From Synechococcus sp. WH 7805 (lineage in GTDB: Bacteria > Cyanobacteriota > Cyanobacteriia > PCC-6307 > Cyanobiaceae), in contig NZ_CH724168.1 in NCBI RefSeq assembly GCF_000153285.1, forward strand, positions 2,457,455 to 2,521,454: a stretch of DNA of 64,000 nucleotides, in the 5' to 3' direction. Of this stretch, positions 4,737 through 57,752 are shown piece by piece. Within the stretch, counting starts at the first letter, position 1; every line of letters starts with the position of its first letter. The notes below the pieces were generated by a model, which saw only the letters and a program-made list of their open reading frames with translations, was not told the DNA's origin and did no database searches. The position numbers and the translations under genes were made by a program.

Positions 4737-5750
4737 ATGTCACTGATTGAGCTGGATCATCTGGTGAAGTCCTACGGGATGGTTCCGGCTCTGACGGATC
4801 TCACTCTCGCTGTTCCTGAAGGCTGCCTCTACGGATTTCTCGGTCCCAATGGGGCTGGTAAAACCACGACATTGCGCATCCTCGCCACGCTGCTGTCACC
4901 CGATCACGGTCGGGTGATTGTGGCCGGAGTCGATGCGTTGCAGAACCCCCGTCAAGTACGACAGATCCTTGGGTACGTGGCCCAAGAGGTGGCGATCGAC
5001 AAAATCCTCACAGGTCGTGAACTTCTGGCTTTGCAGGGCGATCTTTATCACCTGCCCAGAATGGACAGGAATCAGCGCATCGATGATCTGATTCAGCGTC
5101 TTTCGATGGGGGATTGGATTGACCGGCGCTGCGGAACCTATTCCGGTGGAATGCGGCGCCGGTTGGATCTTGCTGCTGGTTTATTGCATTCTCCACGCCT
5201 TTTGGTGCTTGATGAGCCCACCGTTGGCCTTGATCTCGAGAGTCGCGCCGTGATCTGGGATGTGCTTCAGGACCTCAGGGACCAAGGCACAACCATCCTG
5301 CTCAGCAGTCATTACCTCGAGGAGGTTGAGGCCCTGGCCGAACGCATGGCGATCATCGACGCTGGTCGGGTGATTGCTGAGGGGTCCCCCGAAGAGCTGA
5401 AATGTGCCCTTGGAGGCGATCGCGTCACGCTGCGTGTGCGTGAATTCAGTAATCAAACCGAGGCGGAAAAGGTCCGTGAGCTTCTGGATGCCGTTGAAGG
5501 CGTGCGCAGGATCGTGATCAACAGGGCTCAAGGACATTCCTTGAACCTTGTTGTGGATGGAGACCATGTCCTCCCCCGCCTCAAGCAGCGCCTGGGTGAA
5601 AGCGATCTTCCCGTGTTCTCCCTGGCCCAGAGTCGACCAAGCCTGGATGATGTCTACCTGCAGGCGACGGGCCGCACCCTGATGGATGCCGAACTTGCGG
5701 TGGTCGGTCAGCGTGATCCCAAGCAGGAGCGTCGACAGTCGATGCGTTGA
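4737..5750 (+). CDS. ABC transporter ATP-binding protein, DrrA/CcmA type
   Basis: This is the nucleotide-binding subunit of an ABC-2 type exporter. It has Walker A GPNGAGKTTT (about residues 36-45), signature YSGGMRRR, Walker B LLVLDEPT and a switch histidine in LLSSHYLEE. After the roughly 230-residue ATPase domain comes a C-terminal extension of the DrrA kind (to residue 337), where the family pairs with one separate permease. The permease gene follows at 5789. The substrate cannot be read from sequence; relatives export drugs, lipids or polysaccharides. Confidence 0.9.
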   Translation: MSLIELDHLVKSYGMVPALTDLTLAVPEGCLYGFLGPNGAGKTTTLRILATLLSPDHGRVIVAGVDALQNPRQVRQILGYVAQEVAIDKILTGRELLALQGDLYHLPRMDRNQRIDDLIQRLSMGDWIDRRCGTYSGGMRRRLDLAAGLLHSPRLLVLDEPTVGLDLESRAVIWDVLQDLRDQGTTILLSSHYLEEVEALAERMAIIDAGRVIAEGSPEELKCALGGDRVTLRVREFSNQTEAEKVRELLDAVEGVRRIVINRAQGHSLNLVVDGDHVLPRLKQRLGESDLPVFSLAQSRPSLDDVYLQATGRTLMDAELAVVGQRDPKQERRQSMR

Positions 5751-5788: not shown

Positions 5789-6646
5789 ATGACCAACCCT
5801 GCTTTCGATCTCTCCACCCCACGGCAGTACCAACGCTCCGCCATGTCTGAGCTTGCCCAGGAGACAGGCGCTCTCACCCGCAGGCTGTTCGTCCAACTTC
5901 AGCGGCGACCGTCCACCCTGGTGGCGGGGATCCTTCAGCCTTTGATCTGGCTGGTTCTGTTCGGCGCTTTGTTTTCCAGAGCTCCGGAAGGCCTTCTGCC
6001 CGGCGGTGTGAGTTACGGGCGGTTCCTGGGTGCTGGGGTGATTGTGTTCACAGCGTTCAGCGGAGCTCTCAATGCCGGCTTACCGGTGATGTTTGATCGG
6101 GAATTCGGTTTCCTCAATCGCCTGCTTGTGGCTCCATTGCGCAGTCGTAGTTCGATTGTGCTCGCCTCTGTGATCTACATCACCACCTTGAGCCTTGTGC
6201 AGAGTCTGGCAATCATGATCACGGCCTCACTTCTCGGATACGGCTGGCCAGGAGCGGCAGGTCTTGTTCTCGTGATGGTCACGCTTCTGCTGCTGGTGTT
6301 TGCTGTGACCGCCTTGAGCCTGGGGCTCGCCTTCGCGCTTCCCGGTCATATCGAGCTGATCGCCGTGATCTTCGTAGCGAACTTGCCTCTCTTGTTCGCC
6401 AGTACCGCCTTGGCTCCCCTTAGTTACATGCCTCCCTGGTTGGGCTGGCTAGCAGCGCTGAATCCCCTTACCTTCGCGATAGAACCCATTCGTGCCGCCT
6501 ATGCCGGTCCGTTGGATCTTTCTTCCGTTCTTCTGGAAGCTCCCTACGGGGATGTGACCGGCACCACCTGTCTGCTTGTGCTTTCTCTGCTGACAGCCGG
6601 CCTGTTTCTTCTCATTCGCCCCCTGCTCAATCGCAAGCTCGCCTGA
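5789..6646 (+). CDS. ABC-2 type transporter permease
   Basis: The 285-residue protein has six hydrophobic segments between about residues 45 and 280, with the ABC-2 fold pattern of a cytoplasmic N-terminus and a reentrant-like stretch near the first extracellular loop. It contains NRLLVAPLRSRS, the cytoplasmic coupling region common in DrrB-like permeases. It forms an exporter with the ATPase just upstream (38 bp gap). The next gene starts 4 bp after its stop, so the three are probably cotranscribed. Confidence 0.88.
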   Translation: MTNPAFDLSTPRQYQRSAMSELAQETGALTRRLFVQLQRRPSTLVAGILQPLIWLVLFGALFSRAPEGLLPGGVSYGRFLGAGVIVFTAFSGALNAGLPVMFDREFGFLNRLLVAPLRSRSSIVLASVIYITTLSLVQSLAIMITASLLGYGWPGAAGLVLVMVTLLLLVFAVTALSLGLAFALPGHIELIAVIFVANLPLLFASTALAPLSYMPPWLGWLAALNPLTFAIEPIRAAYAGPLDLSSVLLEAPYGDVTGTTCLLVLSLLTAGLFLLIRPLLNRKLA

Positions 6647-6650
6647 TCCC

Positions 6651-7349
6651 GTGACTTTCTCTCCTTACCAGCATCAGGACCCTCGCCAGATCTCCTTGCA
6701 GCGTCAGATCGAGCAATCGCGGCAGGAGGGTGATATTCGGCGATTACAGCGTCTGGAACTTCAATGGGTTCACCGTTACGGAGTGGCCTCTTTGCCTGGT
6801 GCTGCTCAGACCATGATTCAGTCGGAGGTCCCTCAGGACAATCCAGAGCTACCTCCTATAGAGGTGTCTCAAGATGAGGTGGACCGCATCCTGGGTCTAG
6901 GACAGGCAGGCGCGGAGCTGAAGGAGCAGGAGCCGTTAGAGCTGAAGGAGCAGGAGCCGTTAGAGCTGAAGGAGCAGGAGCCGTTAGAGCTGAAGGAGCA
7001 GGAGCCGTTAGAGCTGAAGGAGCAGGAGCCGTTAGAGCTGAAGGAGCAGGAGCCGTTAGAGCTGAAGGAGCAGGAGCCGTTAGAGCTGAAGGAGCAGGAG
7101 CCGTTAGAGCTGAAGGAGCAGGAGCCGTTAGAGCTGAAGGAGCAGGAGCCGTTAGAGCTGAAGGAGCAGGAGCCGTTAGAGCTGAAGGAGCAGGAGCCGT
7201 TAGAGCTGAAGGAGCAGGAGCCGTTAGAGCTGAAGGAGCAGGAGCATTCAGTGCCTGCTTCTGTTGTTCCTGTTCCCATCGCTGGCCCTCACCGACTGCG
7301 CCGCTGGCTCAAGCCGCTCCCCCTCCCTGAATCCCACAAAGCATCCTGA
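6651..7349 (+). CDS. unknown protein with perfect octapeptide tandem repeats
   Basis: No family is recognised. The GTG-initiated 232-residue product has an N-terminal part (residues 1-88) rich in Gln/Arg and probably helical, including QISLQRQIEQSRQEGDIRRL. Then come 13 exact copies plus a partial copy of ELKEQEPL (residues 89-198), and a short basic, proline-rich tail (PHRLRRWLKPLPLP). There is no signal peptide or membrane segment. The repeat is Glu/Lys-rich and would form an extended or coiled charged rod. It sits 4 bp after the ABC permease and overlaps nanE by 1 bp (TGATG), arguing for a real, translated gene. Confidence 0.8.
   Translation: MTFSPYQHQDPRQISLQRQIEQSRQEGDIRRLQRLELQWVHRYGVASLPGAAQTMIQSEVPQDNPELPPIEVSQDEVDRILGLGQAGAELKEQEPLELKEQEPLELKEQEPLELKEQEPLELKEQEPLELKEQEPLELKEQEPLELKEQEPLELKEQEPLELKEQEPLELKEQEPLELKEQEPLELKEQEPLELKEQEHSVPASVVPVPIAGPHRLRRWLKPLPLPESHKAS
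6915..7244 (+). repeat. in-frame 24-bp tandem repeat (13 full copies plus 18 bp)
   Basis: The unit GAGCTGAAGGAGCAGGAG followed by CCGTTA recurs with exactly 24-bp spacing from 6915; the last partial unit begins at 7227 and ends at 7244. All copies read identically at the DNA level, including synonymous positions, so the array expanded recently or is homogenised. Because 24 is divisible by three, copy-number change leaves the downstream reading frame intact. Confidence 0.97.
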
Positions 7350-8065
7350 TGACTTCGTCTGGCGGCGCTGGGTTCAATCGGCAGCAACTCAACCATGGAC
7401 TGATCGTGTCCGTTCAGGCGCCTGAGGGCTCACCGATGCGTCATCCCGATGTCATCGCCGCCATGGCCGAAGCCTCATTGCGAAACGGTGCCATCGGCGT
7501 CAGGTTGGAGAGTCCTGAGCACATCGGTGCAGTACGCGAACGTTGTCCGAACGCTCTGATTATTGGACTTTGGAAGCGTTCTTGGGCAGATAGCTCGGTT
7601 TACATCACGCCGCGCTGGCACGAAGTGAAAGCTGTCTGGGGGGCTGGTGCTGATGTGGTGGCGCTCGATGCAACTGATCGGTCTAGGCCCAATGGTGAGG
7701 ACTTAGAGAGCCTGGTGAAACGGGCCAAGGATGATCTCGGAGCGCCGTTGATGGCCGATGTCGACAGCGTGGAAAACGGCTTGAGAGCCGCGGCCTTGGG
7801 ATGCGACTGGATTGGCACCACCCTGTTTGGCTACACCGAACAGACCAAAGAGTCGAGACCGCCCGGCTTGCATCTTTTGAAGCCGTTACGCGCTCAGCTT
7901 TCAGCGGAAACAATGTTGATCTGTGAGGGAGGTATCGCGTCTCCGCAGACCGCTAGCGAAGCCATCGCCGAGGGGGCTGATGCAGTGGTTGTGGGCACCG
8001 CGATTACGGGTGTGGATCTTCAGGTGGCGTCTTATCACCGACACATCACCAGGCAAACTGATTGA
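7349..8065 (+). CDS. nanE: N-acetylmannosamine-6-phosphate 2-epimerase family protein
   Basis: This TIM-barrel enzyme is predicted to interconvert ManNAc-6-P and GlcNAc-6-P. Family blocks are visible: GAIGVRLESPEHI, the catalytic-lysine region IGLWKR, VVALDATDRSRP, MADVDSVENG, GCDWIGTTLFGYT, ICEGGI and a phosphate-binding GADAVVVGTAIT near the C-terminus. Length (238) fits NanE. The start overlaps the stop of the repeat protein. No other sialic-acid or ManNAc kinase gene is in the window, so the physiological substrate is uncertain. Confidence 0.87.
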   Translation: MTSSGGAGFNRQQLNHGLIVSVQAPEGSPMRHPDVIAAMAEASLRNGAIGVRLESPEHIGAVRERCPNALIIGLWKRSWADSSVYITPRWHEVKAVWGAGADVVALDATDRSRPNGEDLESLVKRAKDDLGAPLMADVDSVENGLRAAALGCDWIGTTLFGYTEQTKESRPPGLHLLKPLRAQLSAETMLICEGGIASPQTASEAIAEGADAVVVGTAITGVDLQVASYHRHITRQTD

Positions 8066-8303: not shown

Positions 8304-9974
8304 TCACATCATTCCGGGCATGCCCATGCCGCCCATGCCGCCCATTCCGCCCATTCCTCCCATACCGCCCATGGGGTCGCCAGCAGGTGCAGGAGCTGCA
8401 GGAGGTTCGGGCTTATCGGCCACCACCACTTCGGTCGTAATCAGCAGCGACGCGATGGAAACCGCATCCTGCAGGCCCAGTCTCACCACTTTGGCGGCGT
8501 CAAGGATGCCAGCTTCCAGGAGGTTTTCATAAGCACCAGAGAGTGCATTGAAGCCCTGGCCGGTGCGCTGCACCTGCTCGACAACCACATCGCCATTGGC
8601 CCCTGCATTGATCGCGATCTGCCGCAGAGGTGCACTCAGAGCACGACGCACAATCTCGACCCCGGTGCGCTGATCACCGTGCAGTTGCTCAGCCAGCCCG
8701 TTCAAGGATCCGGCTAGTTGGATCAATGTGCTGCCACCGCCGGCCACGATGCCTTCTTCAACGGCGGCTCTGGTGGCATTCAGGGCATCTTCGATCCGCA
8801 GTTTGCGGTTCTTGAGCTCGGTTTCCGTCGGAGCTCCGACCTTGATCACGGCCACACCGCCGGCGAGTTTGGCGATTCGCTCGTTGAGCTTCTCGCGGTC
8901 GTACTCGGAGTCGGTGTTGTCCAATTCCCTGCGGATGGATGCCACGCGCTCAGCGACGGCATCACGGCTGTCTTCGCTGGCGACGATGGTGGTTTCTTCC
9001 TTGCTGATGGTGATGCGGCGGACGCGGCCAAGATCCTCCAGGGTCACCTTGTCGAGCGTCATGGCTCGGTCTTCGCTGATCACGGTTCCACCGGTGAGGA
9101 TGGCGATGTCGGCAAGGGCCGCTTTGCGGCGCTCGCCGAAGGAAGGTGCACGCACAGCGGCCACCTGCAGCACGCCGCGGTTTTTGTTCACGACCAGGGT
9201 TGCCAAGGCCTCTCCATCGACTTCCTCGGCCAGGATCACCAGGGGAGATCCGGTTTTTTGAACCGTCTCAAGAATCGGCACGAGATCAGCCACGGCACTG
9301 ATCTTGCGATCGGTCAGCAATAGCAGGGCATTTTCGAACTCACAGATCTGACGATCACCATCGGTGACGAAATAAGGCGAGCTGTAACCCCGATCGAAGG
9401 CCATTCCTTCGGTGACCTCCAGCTCCGTGGCCAACGACTTTGATTCCTCGACGGTGATCACCCCATCGACGGTGACCTTGTCCATGGCTTCAGCCACCAT
9501 GTGGCCAACTTCTTCATCGCCTCCGGCACTCACTGTGGCCACCTGCCGGATGGCATCTCCACTGACGGACTGGCTGCGCTCGGCGAGACCGTCAACGATC
9601 AGAGCGACAGCTTTCTCCATGCCACGACGGAGCTCGATCGGGCTGGCACCGGCTGCGGTGTTGCGTAGACCTTCCTCCACCATGGCCTGCGCCAAAACGG
9701 TCGCAGTCGTCGTGCCATCACCGGCTTTGTCCTTCGTCTTCGACGCCACCTGTTGAATCAGTTTGGCACCGATGTTTTCAAAAGGGTCTTCGAGTTCAAT
9801 TTCCTTGGCGATCGTGTCGCCGTCATTGACGATATCGGGAGCTCCGAAGCTTTTCTCCAGCACTACGTTGCGTCCACGGGGGCCGATCGTGACGCGCACG
9901 GCATCGGCGAGAGCATTCATGCCTCGCTCCAGTGCGGCGCGAGATTCATCCGAAAAACTGAGAAGTTTGGCCAT
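8304..9974 (-). CDS. groL2: chaperonin GroEL, second (groES-less) paralogue
   Basis: This 60-kDa chaperonin subunit has [13 protein letters not shown], the ATP-site [15 protein letters not shown] and [14 protein letters not shown] near residues 83-96, and ends in a (GGM)n-type tail, here [18 protein letters not shown]. No groES lies beside it; cyanobacteria commonly have a second groEL gene on its own. I chose the ATG at 9974, giving [12 protein letters not shown]; a GTG three codons upstream is also open. I found no CIRCE element in the about 130 bp upstream. Confidence 0.95.
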
Positions 9975-10103
9975 GAGTGACACTTACCCGTTGGTCAATG
10001 TCCCACAGCGGCAGGGCGCCTCGGGCGGTTCCTGAAGTGGGGAAAGCCGAATCTTTCTCTGCTCAGGCCCACCAGAACGAAGACTGCTCGGTAGCGTTGA
10101 ACC

Positions 10104-10320: not shown

Positions 10321-11073
10321 TCAACCCATCACCATGCCGCCATCCACCTGAAGAACCTGCCCGGTGATGTAAGCCGCGGCCGAATCTGCGGCAAGGAAGC
10401 GCACCGCCCCTGCCACCTGCTCCGGGGTCCCGAACGTCCCAAGCGGGATAGCCGTGAGAATGCCCTCGCTGTCAAGGTCCTTGGTCATGTCGGTGGCGAT
10501 GAATCCCGGGGCTACGGCATTCACCGTGATACCTCGGCTTGCCATTTCCTTCGCAGCACTGCGGGTCAGGCCCACGACACCGGCCTTGGCAGCGGCGTAA
10601 TTAGCCTGCCCTGCATTGCCCATCAGTCCAACGACTGAGGTGATGTTGATGATCCGACCGCTTTTTTGCTTGAGCATCGGCCGGGTCACAGCGCGGGTGC
10701 AGAGAAACACCCCGGTGAGATTGAGATTGATCACCGCGTTCCAGTCGGTGGATTTCATCCGCATCAGCAGCCCATCGCGCGTGATGCCCGCGTTATTGAC
10801 TAGTACATCGATGCGACCGCTGCGCTCAAGCACCGTTTTGATCAGTGCGTCCACGGCGTCTTCATCGCCCACGTCGGCCTGAAGGGCATAGCCCTTTTGC
10901 CCCATGCTTTCGATCTCCTTCACCACGGCTTCGGCCGCATCCGGGGAGCTGGCGTAATTCACCACCACTTCCGCGCCGCATTCAGCCAGGGCCAGAGCCA
11001 CGGCACGCCCGATTCCCCGGCTGGCACCGGTCACAAGGGCGGTTTGACCATCGAGGGTCCGGGTTGGGTTCAT
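10321..11073 (-). CDS. fabG: 3-oxoacyl-[acyl-carrier-protein] reductase
   Basis: This classical short-chain dehydrogenase performs the NADPH-dependent ketoacyl reduction of type II fatty acid synthesis. The cofactor motif [16 protein letters not shown] lies at about residues 14-29, [14 protein letters not shown] follows near 90, the catalytic Ser falls in [12 protein letters not shown] and the YxxxK in [15 protein letters not shown]-terminal [13 protein letters not shown] is typical. At 250 residues it is normal for FabG, and the TRDGLLMRM block favours FabG over other SDRs. Confidence 0.95.
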
Positions 11074-56684: not shown

Positions 56685-57752
56685 TCACGCGAATCCTTGA
56701 CCGGCATGCTTGGCCACGCAGGCCTGGAGTTGCTGACGCAGGGTGTCGTGGTCGAGATCACGACCGATTAAAACCAGCTGGTTTTTGCGCTCGCCAGGCC
56801 AGTCGCTGTCGTCGATGGAAAAGCGCTTGCCAGCTAGGTGGAAGACGTGCCGGCGCTCACTTTCGTTGAACCAAAGAATTCCCTTGGCCCTGAACACACT
56901 TTCAGGAAGCTGATTGTCAAGAAAATTCTGGAACTTGCGCAAGCCAAAGGGCCCATCACTGCGGAAGGACAGGGAGGTGAAGCCTTCGATCGCGAGGTGA
57001 TCAGCGGATTCATGCTCGTGATTGTGGCCATGATCATGGCTGTGCCCGTGCCCATGGTCGTGCCCATGGTCATGGTCGTGAGTGTGGCTGTGCCCATGGT
57101 CGTGATCCTCAGCCGCGCTCACAACGCGATCCGATTCGAACAGGCCAACGCTCAGGAGGAGCGGCAGGGGAACCTCCCCCTTCTCTGAGCGCAGAATCCG
57201 CGCATCGGTCTTCACTTCCCTCAGCCTGCTTTCAATGGCTTCGAGGCGCGCTGCGTCGACTAGGTCGGTTTTGTTGAGGAGAAGGATGTCTCCATAGATC
57301 ACCTGGGAGCGCCCCACTTCGCTGGCGAGAATCTCCTCGCTGAAATTCTCCGCATCAATCAGGGTGATGATCGAATCAAGGCGCGTCTGATCTCGCAGTT
57401 CACTGCCTAGGAATGTCATGGCAACGGGCAGGGGGTCGGCCAGCCCGGTGGTTTCCACCACCAAATAATCCAAATCTCTGGATTGTTCGAGGATGCGATC
57501 AACGGTTTCAAGCAGCTCGCCATTGATCGAGCAGCAGATGCAGCCGTTGCTGAGCTCCACGATGTCGTCGCTGGTGCTCACCACAAGATCGTTATCGATC
57601 CCGATTTCACCGAATTCATTCACCAGCACGGCTGTCTTGAGGCCGTCCTGATTGCTGAGGATGTGATTGAGCAGCGTGGTTTTCCCAGCTCCGAGAAAGC
57701 CTGTGAGGATGGTTACTGGCACGGTGCTGGCCGACTGAGCTGTGCCTGTCAT
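56685..57752 (-). CDS. CobW/COG0523 family metal GTPase with His-rich loop
   Basis: This P-loop GTPase is a metallochaperone candidate for zinc or cobalt. Walker A is TGFLGAGKTTLLNHIL (about residues 17-32), the CXCC motif is CICCSI (72-77), Walker B lies in ETTGLADPLP, and a His/Asp-rich insert spans residues about 216-248 (DNA 57009-57106). A C-terminal CobW domain follows, ILWFNESERRHVFHLAGKRF. The metal is not identifiable; COG0523 members with His-rich inserts often deliver Zn2+. It is 37 bp downstream of the pterin dehydratase. Confidence 0.92.
   Translation of the reverse strand: MTGTAQSASTVPVTILTGFLGAGKTTLLNHILSNQDGLKTAVLVNEFGEIGIDNDLVVSTSDDIVELSNGCICCSINGELLETVDRILEQSRDLDYLVVETTGLADPLPVAMTFLGSELRDQTRLDSIITLIDAENFSEEILASEVGRSQVIYGDILLLNKTDLVDAARLEAIESRLREVKTDARILRSEKGEVPLPLLLSVGLFESDRVVSAAEDHDHGHSHTHDHDHGHDHGHGHSHDHGHNHEHESADHLAIEGFTSLSFRSDGPFGLRKFQNFLDNQLPESVFRAKGILWFNESERRHVFHLAGKRFSIDDSDWPGERKNQLVLIGRDLDHDTLRQQLQACVAKHAGQGFA

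Follow-up and report, generated by a model that had tools for sequence, protein, structure and literature searches.

The window, which is the whole stretch of 64,000 nucleotides of DNA that was analyzed, carries a real and unusually perfect coding minisatellite that is ordinary in kind and stands out through its perfection and its length. The array lies in the acidic linker of a conserved operon protein that has no Pfam or NCBIfam match above cut-off, and in this protein family the ends are conserved and the linker has been rebuilt in several lineages. The gene family is a more useful lead than the array itself. We hold it to be rather probable that the array arose when replication slippage or unequal recombination recently expanded a single octapeptide in an acidic linker that is disordered and weakly constrained, and that the protein serves as a flexible tether. 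The features discussed below are collected in Table 1.

Table 1. Positions of the array-bearing gene, its parts and the neighboring genes in the window.
Feature	Position	Strand	Evidence or remark
ABC transporter ATP-binding protein (NCBIfam DrrA, TIGR01188)	4737-5750	+	315.7 vs cut-off 312.45 bits
ABC-2 permease (PF01061; best NCBIfam drrB, below cut-off)	5789-6646	+	Pfam, NCBIfam, synteny
Array gene, 232 aa	6651-7349	+	GTG start, TGA stop; computed pI 4.6
Conserved N-terminal domain, 49 aa (...LELQWVHRYGV.SLP)	6651-6797	+	Alignment A1; AlphaFold2
13 identical 24-bp units GAGCTGAAGGAGCAGGAGCCGTTA, (ELKEQEPL)13	6915-7226	+	Script count, Tandem Repeats Finder
14th unit, partial, 19 bp GAGCTGAAGGAGCAGGAGC	7227-7245	+	Enters native linker (EQE-HSVPAS)
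Conserved C-terminal motif GPHRLRRWLKPLPLPESHKAS	7284-7346	+	Orthologue alignments
NanE, putative N-acetylmannosamine-6-phosphate 2-epimerase	7349-8065	+	ATG overlaps array-gene TGA
GroEL	8304-9983	-	GGM-rich C-terminus, seen as short repeats at 8322-8373

The repeat array and its age

Tandem Repeats Finder (TRF) delimited the array at 6915-7245, with a period of 24, 13.8 copies, 100% matches and a score of 662. The thirteen identical copies and one partial copy described in the initial annotation were thus recovered, as was its start position, whereas the end it gave, 7244, fell one base short. The repeat is read in frame with the ORF 6651-7349 (+) and has a computed net charge of -2 per unit. 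The defining features of a coding minisatellite, tandem near-identical units of about 10-100 bp inside an ORF and a period that keeps the frame, were both found.

The octapeptide ELKEQEPL can be encoded in 4608 ways, and a single encoding is used throughout. The number of synonymous differences between units is zero, as had been reported, and this identity of codons argues that the units were copied at the DNA level. Allowing up to 3 mismatches, the unit matched 14 sites in its own genome, every one inside the array, and a reversed control pattern matched none. Among 400 Cyanobiaceae genomes, 251 of which are at least 90% complete, any match was obtained in four: the own genome, with its 14, and three others in which a single site matched, with 3 mismatches. 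An array of the unit was not found at this tolerance in the 399 other genomes, which rules out that the unit was imported from any of the relatives searched. The identical units, the absence of another genomic copy and the absence of the array from the 399 relatives bear out the earlier claim of a recent expansion at the DNA level.

Ranked by the DNA upstream on the permease side, G022 and G010 are the nearest relatives; at 89% identity they differ by about 11%, and both are without the array. An array dating from that split and not homogenized since would be expected to show ~18 substitutions in its 331 bp; none was observed. A rough sequence-based estimate, which ignores constraint and ongoing turnover, would put the age of the array at no more than roughly a sixth of that split. 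The seed of the array was probably resident in the linker: the orthologue of G020 reads TLDGQEPSAP where the repeat of the array protein ends in ELKEQEHSVP, a weak match. The linker of another orthologue (L026, G019) contains EQEPLQQEPLQ and MELKE, and 12 bp of its DNA (GAGCTGAAGGAG) agree exactly with the array unit; this agreement may reflect either shared ancestry or coincidence.

The 331 bp of the array are short enough to fit within a single Sanger or long read. Furthermore, the unit is present nowhere else in the genome, the assembly comprises 2,627,046 bp in 3 contigs with a completeness of 99.99%, and the assemblies of other species carry arrays with other units. We consequently regard it as quite improbable that assembly collapsed or inflated the copy number. 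Perfect tandem arrays are known to cause assembly errors, as reviewed in PMC6868369, and such an error can affect the array count but hardly its existence.

The position of the array inside an operon, and the overlap of the array-gene stop with the NanE start, through which a frameshift would hit both genes, could point to a phase-variable contingency locus controlling the array gene or NanE. However, such loci work through a shift of frame or an altered promoter spacing upon copy change, and neither is found here: the array starts 264 bp into the gene, and with a period of 24 no copy number disturbs the frame. Since copy changes cannot switch the gene on or off, only graded effects remain, and we judge a contingency locus to be very improbable. 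The initial annotation had proposed a phase-varying element, and on/off switching is contradicted by the in-frame period; its statement that copy changes with a period divisible by three alter only the length is correct.

It is scarcely credible that the DNA repeat itself is the functional entity, as protein-binding sites, origin-like iterons or a CRISPR-like array. Perfect direct repeats with regular spacing would suit such a function, but the open frame is continuous, the units have no spacers, the 399 relatives have no array of the unit, other units are seen in relatives in the corresponding part of the protein, and no notable single-strand structure was seen (z of 0.36 and 1.13). A CRISPR array was ruled out because the units are contiguous, and a DNA hairpin as the driver because both strands fold no better than shuffles. 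The minus-strand gene at 6869-7279 was also rejected, being a mechanical complement of the array.

The TRF sample of the own genome covered 444 kb (the window plus 19 further stretches, each 20 kb long) and yielded 8 rows with a score of at least 100. Among its rows with a score of at least 50, the array was the sole one that combined a period of at most 100 with 5 copies or more and 100% matches. The top-scoring row of the sample was a 378-bp tandem repeat with 6.4 copies and 92% matches (L160, 11481-13885; G000:C2, about 1453122-1455526). A perfect 101-bp tandem duplication was seen in L149 at 10647-10849 (G000:C2); it would break the frame if coding, since 101 is not a multiple of three. 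The window also holds a degenerate 18-bp repeat with 3.2 copies at 57024-57080 and, within it, a perfect 12-bp repeat (57047-57071).

The gene family, its operon and the protein architecture

The first 89 residues of the array protein matched in 30 of the 31 genus genomes, the own genome included; in the remaining one, which is 93% complete, a search for the permease was likewise negative. Each of the 30 genus orthologues has its GTG at the matching position. A1, a profile built from residues 1-49, matched 203 of 300 Cyanobiaceae genomes and gave no match in 97, and in a phylum-wide draw it matched 31 of 292 genomes, all within Cyanobiaceae. The family is fast-evolving, and in these sequence comparisons it was matched only in Cyanobiaceae. 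Published work on the gene family or its repeat peptide was not found in the literature searched.

Twenty family genomes without a profile match were inspected, and 15 of them contain the permease. Behind it, a diverged ORF of the same architecture was recognized by eye in 8 (G038, G048, G054, G062, G064, G073, G076 and G083), with a possible ninth in G078. Four genomes (G053, G055, G059 and G060) showed none or a mere remnant among the printed ORFs of at least 60 aa behind the permease, and two (G052 and G069) showed no family motif there. The array protein may be dispensable in some lineages, because 4 of the 15 permease-bearing genomes show no ORF or a remnant. The ORF of G078 (L180, from 2353) has a family-like start followed by a stretch that looks helix-turn-helix-like by eye, and is possibly a fusion.

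The GTG of the array gene sits 4 bp past the stop of the ABC-2 permease. In 89 of 90 loci the gene directly follows the permease (30/30 in the genus and 59/60 in the family), and the sole exception begins at a contig end. NanE lies downstream in 28 of 30 genus loci and 40 of 60 family loci. Of the 22 loci without NanE, 5 are also without GroEL (2 genus, 3 family), all on stretches that are cut short; in the other 17, all from the family set, the gene is kept between the permease and GroEL. The ABC transporter is thus the most constant neighbor of the array gene (permease 89/90 versus NanE 68/90), and this synteny suggests a functional link between the two. The gene does lie between an ABC exporter and NanE, as originally placed, with NanE as the less constant neighbor. 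The description as an unknown protein stands for the function, whereas the gene itself belongs to a conserved Cyanobiaceae family adjoining an ABC permease.

In 86 of the 90 loci the gene is present up to the stop codon, and these genes share a three-part layout, recognized by script in 84 and by eye in 2. An N-terminal stretch that closes with WVHRYGV.SLP or a similar sequence is followed by a linker whose length varies greatly and by an RLRRWL...KAS-like C-terminal motif. Linker counts leave out 6 of the 90 loci, 4 cut by contig ends and 2 not parsed. In the array protein the linker has 155 aa and 34 more acidic than basic residues, compared to a median length of 76 aa among the 27 parsed genus members. 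It is the second-longest of these 27 in a genus range of 32-162 aa, and the unparsed L008 is about as long. Across the family, parsed linkers extend from 32 to 551 aa, and 82 of 84 are net acidic, a bias that could be the default for hydrophilic linkers. Very long linkers occur in L086-L091 (G080, G112, G154, G111, G105 and G066), whose stop-to-stop frames have 445-691 aa; they stand between the usual N- and C-terminal signatures of the family.

AlphaFold2 was confident for the array protein solely in a predicted helical hairpin formed by residues 11-26 and 29-43. The array itself was modeled without helix at a pLDDT of about 45-54, from an alignment of 15 sequences and with the caveat that low pLDDT is not proof of disorder. 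The lack of helix in the model agrees with the proline that recurs every eight residues and is at odds with a rod. The model thereby speaks against the charged rod proposed at first and suggests that the array-bearing linker is disordered. The model of the WH7803 orthologue, which has a short linker, showed the same hairpin and a low-confidence helix at 82-103; by eye, the sequence of that segment is absent from the array protein and from the G020 orthologue.

The highest 19-residue mean hydropathy of the array protein was 0.31, with no transmembrane-like stretch, compared to 2.85 for the permease as control, and none of the 30 genus orthologues exceeded 1.6. A signal peptide or membrane segment, as would mark a surface protein, was not seen in the array protein by hydropathy, which was the sole criterion applied. 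The only Pfam match of the array protein was Cornifin, at 27.9 bits versus a cut-off of 34.8; membership in that family was ruled out, as the match is below cut-off and lies on the array only. Searches of 6 orthologues against Pfam gave one weak HpuA match alone (E 0.13), and NCBIfam gave 0 matches for the array protein and 4 orthologues. Against the Protein Data Bank, a profile of the N-terminal domain had a 'Tunable symmetric protein' as its best hit, with an E of 0.019.

Linker repeats in relatives and in control genes

The 90 loci examined for repeats consist of 30 genus and 60 family loci; the first 26 family loci were chosen chiefly because of their long frames, and the remaining 34 were hand-picked from better E-values and for genus spread. 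Because of this hand-picking, the family-wide repeat rates are not those of a random sample. A TRF score of at least 50 was reached in the gene of 36 of the 90 loci (genus 6/30, length-picked family 19/26, other family 11/34), and the period of the best gene repeat was divisible by 3 in all 36. Thirty of these 36 best repeats are net acidic and the other 6 have no net acidic charge; gene repeats in some other genera are rich in Pro, Ala and Ser and not acidic. Scores of at least 80 were found in the gene of 16/90 loci and in the flanks outside the GroEL tail of 0/90. At a score of at least 50, such flank repeats occurred in 9/90 loci (listed by hand), among them a 23-bp repeat at 600-644 in L093 and L095. 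The GGM tail of GroEL, which carries TRF repeats in 81/90 loci, served as a built-in positive control.

Twelve of the 90 loci, spread over 7 genera of the family list, have gene repeats with a score of at least 100. Their units mostly differ from locus to locus, except that the units within genus g5 resemble each other and that one unit is common to G227 and G251. Examples from the linkers of other lineages are AEEEVVAEEEVV and IEHSEVVEEETVEAITSLED. In-frame linker arrays were found with periods of 36 bp (7.6 copies; L102, G034), 60 bp (2.9 copies; L104, G149), 84 bp (2.8 copies; L106, G057) and 24 bp (L107, G089), and in L104 and L106 the units match each other to 100% at the DNA level. As for the orthologue alignment proposed at the outset, the genus orthologues lack the array, and other lineages bear different in-frame repeats in the linker. 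A change in copy number may be captured between G227 and G251, whose upstream permease-side DNA is 97.2% identical and whose genes differ by 78 bp, the local repeat period. In G222 (L092, 1621-2463 of the oriented locus), a 429-bp direct duplication (2.0 copies, 99% matches) doubles the linker and the C-terminal motif, resulting in a protein with two conserved C-termini.

Two other genes of the genus served as controls. For IF-2, the N-terminal region examined reached at most 1500 bp upstream from the profile match and came from 29 of the 31 genus genomes (41.3 kb); it showed TRF scores of at least 50, 80 and 100 in 10, 6 and 2 of the 29 genomes. The corresponding numbers for the array gene are 6, 3 and 1 of 30 genomes. 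At a score of at least 50, the rate per kb of the array gene is 1.7 to 2.5 times that of IF-2 (6 loci over 14.2 kb of gene, or over 9.8 kb without the N-terminal domain); per gene it is not higher. FtsZ, which is mostly folded, gave no score of at least 50 in 29 genomes (35.7 kb). Repeat growth is thus common in low-complexity coding regions of the genus (IF-2 10/29, array gene 6/30, FtsZ 0/29), and the repeat propensity of the linker is ordinary, since the disordered N-terminus of IF-2 in the genus also often carries tandem repeats. The array had been called unusual, which is right for a perfect array within its own genome but not for repeats in this linker or in the N-terminus of IF-2.

The tether reading and comparison with known systems

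In the reading that we favor, replication slippage or unequal recombination would have multiplied a resident octapeptide of the linker, which would thereby have grown to its 155 aa versus the genus median of 76. The two ends of the protein, the N-terminal helical hairpin and the C-terminal LRRWL motif, may each bind a different partner, while the acidic linker would determine how far they reach and would keep them soluble and apart. Such a linker would have to keep its frame, charge and flexibility and would be under little sequence constraint, and the extra length would be tolerated rather than selected. The protein may act within the DrrAB-like ABC exporter operon. A functional role has been argued for low-complexity regions in prokaryotes (PMC6821194). 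The family offers a natural series of linker lengths on one scaffold, which helps to ask what a disordered linker must keep, and the array is a candidate strain marker.

Alternatively, a longer and more acidic linker could have been favored in this lineage, with an easily changed copy number being useful, in line with the tunable spacer suggested at first. The acidity of 82 of 84 linkers despite differing sequence, the in-frame recurrence of repeats in several genera and the rank of the G000 linker near the top of the genus, with L008 about as long, are consistent with this adaptive tuning. On the other hand, repeats in the IF-2 of 10/29 genomes indicate that growth requires no special selection, and linkers of 32-162 aa all occur in the genus, so that we consider such tuning unlikely. 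A bolder proposal, to which we likewise give little weight, is that the protein is a Cyanobiaceae-specific accessory or subunit of the DrrAB-like exporter in which only linker length, charge and frame are selected, the array being the newest tuning step. If this were true, lineages would repeatedly rebuild the linker of an exporter protein from new tandem units in a continuing adjustment of length and charge in marine picocyanobacteria.

Flexible tether or not, the array shares with bacterial coding minisatellites and VNTR loci the in-frame, DNA-identical units, the low-complexity surroundings, the period divisible by three and a unit private to its lineage. However, the array protein is no evident surface antigen or adhesin, and no hydrophobic segment was seen in it. 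The comparison covered one genome per species, and the nearest case to a copy-number difference is that of one 78-bp unit between the close species G227 and G251.

TonB is membrane anchored and spans the periplasm. Its X-Pro repeat spacer resembles the array in that charged, Pro-containing repeats act as a spacer, and an orthologue of the array protein, L013 (G030), bears an EP repeat. In contrast to TonB, the array protein is without a transmembrane-like stretch.

The C-terminal linker of FtsZ, the best-studied analogue encountered, also invites comparison, with a conserved end, a hypervariable charged linker that is probably disordered and a short conserved C-terminal motif. Conserved ends and a variable linker predicted to be disordered, the marks of an FtsZ-type tether, were likewise found in the array-gene family. 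According to PMC9939409, what matters in this linker is its length, net charge and flexibility, not its sequence. The likeness is architectural and no sequence relation is claimed; the N-terminal part of the array protein is merely a helical hairpin. Moreover, the longest parsed linker of the family has 551 aa, versus 68-104 residues for the tails of the FtsZs considered in PMC9939409, and the FtsZ of the genus, unlike the array-gene family, has no TRF repeats of the scores considered here (at least 50; 0/29).

The N-terminal region of IF-2 in the genus is similar to the linker as a low-complexity coding region with frequent tandem repeats. It differs in being basic and rich in Pro and Ala in the two sequences compared, and its top array score was 456, versus 662 for the array.
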